NCBI GenBank assembly: GCA_023251485.1
Contig: JAHEYR010000003.1
Coordinates: 1-50,061, forward strand
Direction of reading: 5' to 3'
DNA length: 50,061 nt
Origin: Bacteroidales bacterium
GTDB taxonomy: Bacteria; Bacteroidota; Bacteroidia; Bacteroidales; Cfx3-03
The notes under the pieces are model-generated. The model made no database searches, was not told where the DNA came from, and was given only the letters and a program-made list of their open reading frames with translations. Positions 42,838 to 45,260 of the stretch are shown here, one piece after another. How positions within the stretch are numbered: the stretch's first letter is position 1; each line of letters starts with the position of its first letter. The translations under genes were made by a program, and so were the position numbers.

Positions 42838-44175
42838 TTAAAGAGCAAATGCTTTCTTGATATCTTCGACAGCATCCAACTCTTCCCATGAGAAGAATTT
42901 AACTTTTTTATAGTTTACAGAACGACCATTTTCCTGACGGGAAACAGTTTTATCATTAGAATAATAAACTTCAACCTCTTTCTCTTCAGGGGTCCTACCA
43001 AAGTGACCATATGCAGCTGTTGGAGAGAAAATCGGATCTTTCAACCCATAACGCTTAACAATGGCATAAGGCCTTAAATCGAATATTTTACCAACGATTT
43101 GAGAAATCTCGCCATCACTCATTACCTTACCTTCTGCATTTTTAACCTTGGCTGTTTTATAGGTATTTACATACAGACCAACAGGCTGAGCAACACCGAT
43201 AGCATAAGCTACCTGAACCAAAATTTCTGATGCCACACCTGCAGCAACCAAATTCTTTGCAATATGACGAGCAGCATAAGCAGCTGAACGGTCAACCTTT
43301 GAAGAATCTTTTCCTGAGAATGCGCCACCACCATGAGCACCTTTTCCACCATATGTATCAACGATAATCTTACGTCCGGTTAAACCCGTATCTCCATGAG
43401 GACCACCAATAACAAACTTACCCGTTGGATTGACAAACAAACGATAGTCATCACTGAATAGTTTCTTTATACGAGCGGGTAGATCTTTCTTAATTCTTGG
43501 AATCAGGATATCTGCAATATCTTTTGCAATTTTATCTTGCATCAGTTTTTCAGCGACCTTACCAGCCTCATAAGAATCATCGACAGGCTTGATAAAATCG
43601 TCATGTTGTGTAGAAACAACAATGGTATCAATACGAATCGGTTTACCATTATCAGCATATTCAATCGTAACCTGTGATTTTGCGTCCGGACGCAAATAGG
43701 TCATTTTCTTTCCTTCTCTACGGATGACAGCAAGCTCTTCTAACAACAGATGAGCCAACTCAATAGGCAAAGGCATATAGTTATCGGTTTCGTTTGTCGC
43801 ATAACCAAACATCATTCCCTGGTCACCGGCACCTTGTTCCTCTTCTGTTGCTCTTTCTACCCCTTGATTAATATCGCTGGATTGTTCATGAATGGTCGTA
43901 ATTACACCACATGAGCTATAATCAAATTGATATTCTGCTTTAGTATAGCCAATCTTTTGGATCGTTGCGCGAACTATTTTTTGGATATCAACATATCCAT
44001 TGGTTTTTACTTCACCGCTACAAACGGCTAAACCTGTTGTAACAAGCGTTTCGCAAGCTACTTTTGATTCACTATCCCAACGAAGAAACTCATCAAGTAA
44101 TGCATCTGAAATCTGATCGGCTACTTTGTCTGGATGTCCTTCTGATACTGACTCAGAAGTAAATAAATATCCCAT
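42838..44175 (-). CDS. metK: S-adenosylmethionine synthetase
   Basis: The 445-residue cytoplasmic enzyme joins methionine and ATP to SAM. Hallmarks are [20 protein letters not shown] at the start, [20 protein letters not shown] near residue 118, the [20 protein letters not shown] loop near residue 259 and [20 protein letters not shown]. Around 430 is usual in Bacteroidota; the extra length is a short insertion around residues 320-360 and the C-terminal end. A SAM-II-type aptamer in its leader (44244-44297) would let the product shut off its own enzyme. It is a single-gene unit with promoter, riboswitch and terminator. Confidence 0.97.
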
Positions 44176-44243
44176 CTTTAAAAGATATTATAAGGTTTAA
44201 AATAAATTAGAAGGGAAAATATGATTGTACAATAGGAAAAATG

Positions 44244-44297
44244 AATTGTTTTAGCATTTTTTTCCGTGGTTGCAATCAATGAAATCTTTCCACAACG
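44244..44297 (-). ncRNA. SAM-II-type riboswitch in the metK leader
   Basis: Read on the minus strand, the RNA is GUUGUGG, then AAAGAUUUCAUUGAUUGCAA, then CCACGG, an A-rich linker, and AUGCUAAAACAAUU. This matches SAM-II: P1 is formed by GUGG/CCAC (plus wobble pairs), loop 1 has GAUUU and AUUGCAA, and the 3' element GCUAAAA holds the SAM-contacting U and A residues. The pseudoknot AUUG (loop 1) with CAAU (after GCUAAAA) replaces the CC/GG pairs of the metX example, a compensatory change. The aptamer begins at the predicted transcription start, 121 bases before the ATG. SAM-II is best known in Alphaproteobacteria and, as I recall, also reported in Bacteroidota. Confidence 0.75.
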
Positions 44298-44300
44298 GTG

Positions 44301-44308
44301 CAAAATTA
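44301..44308 (-). promoter_or_regulatory. -7 element of metK
   Basis: CAAAATTA on the plus strand reads TAATTTTG on the minus strand, an exact TAnnTTTG. The start would be at about 44296, the first base of the SAM-II aptamer. The best -33 CAAA (44333-44336) is 24 bases away, longer than usual. Confidence 0.6.
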
Positions 44309-44351: not shown

Positions 44352-45260
44352 CTAAATAGTAAAATTCCGAAATATCTCTTCAAGCGTCTGATTTTCACGC
44401 TGCATCGACAACACCGTCCAGTTATGTTCGACAGAGAATCTAAATACTTCACCTCTAATATCAGCTTCAGCATTTGCTACAAGCTTAAAATGCAGGTCAT
44501 CTAAACGGATTACTTCAATAACACCAGGTATCGCTGATAATAACAACTCGTCAACTGGCATTTCAAATTCAAGCGTAATATAAACCTTTCCTTTTACGCG
44601 CGACGATAAGACAGCTGTATCTTCATCTGCTACAATTTTTCCGTGATTAATTATAATCACCCTCTTACAGAGTGCTTCTACTTCCTGCATGATATGTGTT
44701 GAAAGTATTACCGTTTTAGTCTGACCAATCTCCTGAATTAAATTTCGGATTTCTATAATCTGGTTGGGGTCGAGCCCGGAAGTTGGTTCATCAAGAATTA
44801 ATACTTGCGGATCGTGCATCAATGCCTGAGCCAAACCAACACGCTGCTTGTATCCTTTAGATAATTGTCCGATTTTTTTATGCGTTTCATTGGATAAACC
44901 GGTAAGTTTAACAAGATATTCAACTCTTTCAGATGCCGAATCGCCCATGTTATACAAGCCGGCGACAAATAGAAGAAACTCCTTCACATACATCTCCGGA
45001 TATAAAGGATTGTTCTCGGGGAGATATCCTATCATTTTTCGAACCGCAAGTGAGGACTGAATAACATCATGACCATAAACAGTTACCGCCCCCTCACTAG
45101 GAGGGAGAAAGCAAGCTATAATTTTCATAAGTGTCGATTTACCAGCCCCATTGGGACCTAATAGACCTGTAATTTGACCTGGGTTTATTGAAAGAGAGAT
45201 CTGATCTAATGCTTTCTGAGTACCATAAAACTTACTTAAGTTTTCGATTTTGATAGACAT
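44352..45260 (-). CDS. gldA: GldA-like ABC transporter ATPase
   Basis: The 302-residue cytoplasmic ATPase has Walker A GPNGAGKST (residues 35-43), the signature LSKGYKQRVGLAQAL, Walker B VLILDEPTSGLDPNQ and a C-terminal domain with EHNWTVLSMQRENQTLEEIF that is typical of GldA and its relatives. In gliding Flavobacteria GldA works with GldF and GldG; here no permease gene is adjacent. A TACCTTTG element on the minus strand (45293-45286) may be its promoter. The start MSIKIENLSKFYG fits the family. Function in a non-gliding host is unknown. Confidence 0.87.
   Translation of the reverse strand: MSIKIENLSKFYGTQKALDQISLSINPGQITGLLGPNGAGKSTLMKIIACFLPPSEGAVTVYGHDVIQSSLAVRKMIGYLPENNPLYPEMYVKEFLLFVAGLYNMGDSASERVEYLVKLTGLSNETHKKIGQLSKGYKQRVGLAQALMHDPQVLILDEPTSGLDPNQIIEIRNLIQEIGQTKTVILSTHIMQEVEALCKRVIIINHGKIVADEDTAVLSSRVKGKVYITLEFEMPVDELLLSAIPGVIEVIRLDDLHFKLVANAEADIRGEVFRFSVEHNWTVLSMQRENQTLEEIFRNFTI

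Follow-up and report, generated by a model that had tools for sequence, protein, structure and literature searches.

A SAM-II aptamer upstream of metK in a Bacteroidales bacterium and a candidate expression platform that needs no Shine–Dalgarno sequence

How could a riboswitch control translation in bacteria whose ribosomes ignore the Shine–Dalgarno (SD) sequence? The question is raised by the leader of metK, the S-adenosylmethionine (SAM) synthetase gene, on a 50,061-nucleotide (nt) stretch of contig JAHEYR010000003.1 (assembly GCA_023251485.1) from a Bacteroidales bacterium; this whole stretch is referred to below as the window. The leader contains a SAM-II aptamer. SAM-II aptamers were described in 2005, and the open-licence literature that was found leaves their control in a non-SD phylum unexplained and contains no description of an expression platform for Bacteroidota SAM-II. 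Ribosomes of Bacteroidia do not recognise the SD and depend on low structure and on adenines near the start (PMC9976891), so that covering the start codon itself would make sense as a switch. A comparison of leaders from about 220 relatives points to such masking. That these leaders generally work in this way is given a probability of about 55%.

The aptamer and its position at the metK promoter

The elements on which the argument is built are the following.

44241-44299, minus strand: SAM-II aptamer (RF01726), found by cmscan at 60.4 bits and kept in both congeners
44265-44294, minus strand: P1 stem, UGUGG 44294-44290 with CCACG 44269-44265, the last pair being U-G, from the cmscan alignment
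44245-44280, minus strand: pseudoknot, AUUG 44280-44277 with CAAU 44248-44245, read from the sequence, with C-G/U-A covariation in relatives
44301-44308, minus strand: -7 promoter box TAATTTTG, read from the sequence, fitting TAnnTTTG of the Bacteroidota sigma-A
42838-44175, minus strand: metK, S-adenosylmethionine synthetase, 445 amino acids, NCBIfam TIGR01034 at 500.5 bits against a cut-off of 309.4

The segment 44299-44241 matches the Rfam family RF01726 (SAM-II, long loop), whose curated gathering cut-off is 44 bits. Its E value is 3.2e-9 for 50 kb against all 4227 Rfam families and 5.1e-11 for 0.8 kb, and the match therefore lies far beyond chance. RF01726 is the sole above-threshold Rfam match in the whole window; mir-22, TtnuHACA2 and COG3860 also appeared in the scan, below threshold, and are regarded as chance matches. 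The initial annotation, made from the sequence alone, had named RF00521 as the covariance model to check; a significant match was indeed obtained, to RF01726 instead. The window's genome carries a single SAM-II copy in an assembly that is 82% complete.

On re-reading, the conserved SAM-II segments follow one another on the minus strand as that annotation had described: GAUUU (44286-44282), AUUGCAA (44276-44270), an A-rich linker and GCUAAA (44255-44250). The P1 strands are GUGG (44293-44290) and CCAC (44269-44266), to which the covariance model adds U44294, and a wobble pair is possible for U44295. The H-type pseudoknot AUUG/CAAU is intact. It had been interpreted as a compensatory difference from the CC/GG of the metX reference, and relatives bear this out: among GAUUGC-type aptamers the pair is C-G in 31, U-A in 41, U-G in 10 and C-A in one (Fisher p 5e-13), a covariation that supports the SAM-II fold.

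The element is thus assigned, from sequence and covariance and with hardly any doubt, to an already known kind of SAM-II aptamer, which would bind SAM. RF01726 was reported in 2010 from Bacteroidetes and marine sequences by Weinberg et al. (PMC2864571), who propose no mechanism for it in the main text. The window's aptamer shares with this family P1, GAUUU, AUUGCAA, the A-rich linker, GCUAAA, the pseudoknot and the phylum, and shows no essential difference; an example from Bacteroides thetaiotaomicron was already in the alignment of Corbino et al. 2005 (PMC1273637). The alpha-proteobacterial metA element of the same study (RF00521) has the same fold and a transcription start a few nt before P1, whereas the window has metK, no terminator, a linker of about 70 nt and no SD. 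A decayed or non-responsive aptamer, conserved in sequence without regulating in response to SAM in this genus, would fit the weak platform signals of the window described below. However, the conserved motifs are all intact at 60.4 bits and the core is identical in three congeners, making decay very improbable.

The aptamer sits at the metK promoter, as initially annotated. In the start-site map of Flavobacterium psychrophilum, the TAnnTTTG box spans -12 to -5 (PMC9723704); from the box TAATTTTG at 44308-44301, the metK transcript is therefore predicted to start at about 44296 (G), at the foot of P1. This agrees with SAM-II leaders in general, in which transcription mostly begins a few nt ahead of P1 (Corbino et al. 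2005, PMC1273637). The distance from box to P1, annotated as 4 bases, comes to 4-7 nt, according to the pair at which P1 is taken to begin. TAnnTTTG lies at most 40 nt upstream of P1 in 185 of 222 SAM-II/metK leaders. The -33 element of the window is poorly placed, with TTTG 24 nt upstream of the -7 box.

SAM-II matches were found in 30 of 41 relatives in a first set, in 209 of 294 sampled genomes of the order, and in at least 39 of 247 genomes across the class, the last being a lower bound because of stricter filters. All 30 RF01726 matches of the first set directly precede metK. The metK ATG of the window lies at 44175 and the gene opens with AUGGGA; the gap from aptamer to ATG is 69 nt, which had been thought unusually long. 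It is typical of the phylum: from GCUAAA to ATG the linker measures 74 nt, and the median length is 78 nt for the first set and 74 nt for the second. Neither the aptamer itself, nor where it lies, nor how far it is from the ATG is out of the ordinary for Bacteroidota. It very probably controls metK, presumably as an OFF switch by which SAM would repress its own synthesis through the metK leader.

Additional weak or second SAM-II-like matches occur at G004:C14:87192-87256 and, twice, in genome G445. Most metK leaders that lack SAM-II are short, and their -7 box and ATG are often 20-60 nt apart, for example in L034, L036, L052, L082 and L103 (Pontibacter, Hymenobacter) and in other loci.

A linker strand that coevolves with its aptamer

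According to Barrick and Breaker 2007 (PMC2258182), the mechanisms of SAM-II had not been established experimentally, and regulatory terminators prevail in alpha- and beta-proteobacteria. Intrinsic-terminator control has been proposed for many proteobacterial SAM-II leaders and reported for alpha-proteobacteria (PMC1273637; PMC2258182). Between the aptamer and the open reading frame of the window, however, there is no intrinsic terminator (a G+C-rich hairpin with a U-run), and related linkers contain one in 6 of 219 cases, at the chance level of 3-10 in shuffles. Such control is extremely unlikely here.

The linkers of relatives suggest a different kind of platform, whose possibility the initial annotation had raised. 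For each leader, the best pairing of the linker with the aptamer's 5′ half was computed and compared with linkers swapped among species. In 93 non-redundant leaders, a leader's own linker pairs at a mean of -16.4 kcal/mol, versus -13.5 for swapped linkers (standard deviation 0.26, p 5e-5). The anti-aptamer hypothesis was formed on this set, and an independent held-out set of 91 leaders, fetched afterwards, replicated the difference (own -15.6, swapped -13.9, p 5e-5). Sister pairs were then compared to remove shared ancestry: of 72 path-independent pairs whose aptamer strands differ, 55 favoured the own combination and 15 disfavoured it (p 1.7e-6). This switch strand mostly starts 12-20 nt past GCUAAA and ends about 32 nt ahead of the ATG, and its coevolution with its own aptamer is shown statistically in the relatives.

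A narrower signal, the swap of GAUUGC/GCUUGC against CAAUC/CAAGC variants, was strong without a tree and vanished with one; the whole-strand sister test is therefore relied on instead. A test of whether GCUAAA pairs with a UUUAGC further downstream gave no significant result overall (p 0.21). In Flavobacteriales-type leaders (L102, L104, L123, L136 and others), a UUUAGC complementary to GCUAAA is conserved about 20 nt past the aptamer; there it is nested within a GAUUGC/GCAAUC pairing and resembles a longer anti-aptamer hairpin.

Genome G326 carries two SAM-II copies, L188 (G326:C269) and L189 (G326:C228); one of the two precedes metK and the other metH. The copies share an identical stretch of 78 nt, which starts at P1, includes the switch strand and ends directly after UCUCCC, between 60-nt flanks that are 38-40% identical. 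With flanks this unrelated, aptamer and switch strand must have moved or stayed together.

The same anti-aptamer pairing is required by a Rho-dependent transcriptional switch. The SAM-bound state would leave a C-rich, G-poor linker single-stranded to load Rho, and without SAM this linker would be paired with the aptamer. The composition fits, since 10-40 nt past the aptamer the linker is pyrimidine-rich with about 28-33% C and 8-11% G, as does the absence of an intrinsic terminator. However, the complement of a G/A-rich aptamer is necessarily rich in C and U anyway, and Rho loading gives no reason to expect the specific link of UCCC to AUGGG described in the next section. Termination by Rho is considered unlikely.

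UCCC in the linker and AUGGG at the start

The second partner suggested for the switch strand is the start region itself. UCCC is present in the linkers of 51 of 72 genes that start with AUGGG and in 29 of 107 genes with other starts (p 9e-9). In 71 close pairs differing in the start, UCCC follows AUGGG by 37:7 (p 5e-6), the strongest association of all 256 tetramers, and 35 path-independent pairs on the best tree give a mean of 18.9:2.3 (median p 0.0004). The tetramers CCCT, CCTC, CTCC and ACCC have no link to AUGGG starts in the same tree-controlled pair test. Among metK leaders that have AUGGG and lack SAM-II, none of seven contains UCCC. Statistically, then, UCCC and AUGGG starts are shown to coevolve in the relatives.

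Folding energies point in the same direction. Opening the start region is easier in leaders without SAM-II, at 2.3 versus 4.4 kcal/mol (p 4e-10). In complete leaders, opening costs 3.56 kcal/mol with the leader's own aptamer and 4.21 with a foreign one (p 1e-10); in the AUGGG class the values are 4.33 and 5.31 (p 3e-8). The foreign-aptamer control replaced a comparison of full leaders with aptamer-truncated ones, which is biased, as cutting the aptamer away invariably takes competitors with it.

These results bear on a simpler form of regulation, in which the 5′-terminal aptamer, once stabilised by SAM, would by itself lower translation or mRNA stability and the linker strand would only tune the kinetics of aptamer folding. 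The position of the aptamer at the transcript's 5′ end agrees with this, as does the weak linker pairing of the window. Direct control nevertheless leaves the link between UCCC and AUGGG unexplained, does not account for starts being more structured in linkers taken without their aptamer than in SAM-II-less leaders, and has to act from an aptamer that ends about 70 nt before the ATG. We consider it improbable.

A proposed platform and the window's own leader

Masking of the start codon by the switch strand would involve the following segments of the window.

44213-44227, minus strand: candidate switch strand CAAUCAUAUUUUCCC, chosen for having the position and order of the element found in relatives
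44222-44227, 44214-44219 and 44213-44216, minus strand: CAAUCA (44227-44222), UUUUCC (44219-44214) and UCCC (44216-44213) within CAAUCAUAUUUUCCC, complementary to UGAUUG, GGAAAG and the start region, respectively
44286-44291, minus strand: GGAAAG, 5′ segment of the aptamer and a possible partner of the switch strand as an alternative to P1/L1, from the own-versus-swapped tests on relatives; weak in the window
44273-44278, minus strand: UGAUUG, junction and 5′ strand of the pseudoknot, complementary to CAAUCA, from the own-versus-swapped tests on relatives; kept in congeners through G-U
44170-44173, minus strand: GGGA, made up of codon 2 and the final base of the start codon (AUGGGA) and proposed to pair with UCCC, from UCCC/AUGGG co-occurrence in relatives

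At low SAM, the aptamer's 5′ half would pair with the linker strand CAAUCA..UUUUCC and the start codon would stay open. Binding of SAM would close the aptamer through P1 and the pseudoknot and free the switch strand, whose UCCC could then pair with GGGA over the start codon and block initiation. Riboswitches that mask the SD, such as SAM-III/SMK and preQ1, let their ligand control access to the initiation region. The proposed platform would resemble them in this respect, and differs in that the masked element would be the start codon and codon 2, not the SD. If this holds, it would show how a riboswitch can control translation where there is no SD to cover. We tentatively suggest, at slightly less than even odds, that Bacteroidota use an SD-free platform of this kind, in which one linker strand is shared by the aptamer's 5′ half and the start region (UCCC/AUGGGA) and SAM binding passes it from the former to the latter; the platform may have spread as a module, as the identical 78-nt copies of G326 illustrate.

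Several observations weigh against start-codon masking. The tree behind the path-independent UCCC pairs derives from 110 residues and is poorly supported; restriction to supported branches leaves 6 pairs and nothing significant. Start classes other than AUGGG have no matching linker complement, so that AUGGG genes would offer the clearest case of masking, should it occur at all, and within the order there is no enrichment of exact 5-mer complements to the start. The metH copy of G326 starts with AUGAAU and has no GGGA, and the support from this genome is therefore limited to the anti-aptamer part of the model and does not extend to the start codon. All foldings were computed without pseudoknots. 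In the window itself, the duplex between aptamer and linker reaches -8.8 kcal/mol (rank 0.83, z about 0), leaving the switch strand indistinguishable from shuffled sequence, and masking the aptamer fails to raise the probability of UCCC:GGGA pairing (0.68 with the aptamer present, 0.54 with it masked).

In computed energy, the aptamer state lies within about 1 kcal/mol of the switch state (-26.3 versus -25.1), and opening the start costs 5.5 kcal/mol with the aptamer free and 7.4 with it masked, a type of comparison that shares the bias noted above. The expected switch appears only in congener L023, where the UCCC:GGGA probability rises from 0.02 to 0.94 upon masking. Both congeners retain the complement of UGAUUG through G-U pairs, as CAAUCG in L022 and CAAUUG in L023. 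Because the thermodynamics of the window are weak, the mechanism for this copy is carried mostly by its relatives. Masking in the window's own leader is accordingly rated as possible and on balance rather doubtful. Judged from sequence comparison, the platform may represent a new, testable variant that is well supported statistically across relatives and modestly for this copy.

An alternative partner for the pseudoknot strand had also been suggested, namely a downstream AUUG for CAAU. The corresponding hairpin (ACAAU 44249-44245 with AUUGU 44233-44229) can form in the window; it is broken in L022, which has AUCGU, and absent from L023, and was set aside. The comparative evidence makes CAAUCA..UUUUCCC (44227-44213) the better candidate strand.

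A local hairpin formed by AAUAUCUU and GGGAUAUU is predicted at 44195-44163 on the minus strand, with the start codon in its loop, and would compete with UCCC:GGGA. Its sequence is also found in the nearest congener, L022, and not in L023. Directly upstream of metK and in the same orientation lies a gldA-type ABC ATPase gene (44352-45260, minus strand), an arrangement that some related leaders seem to share.
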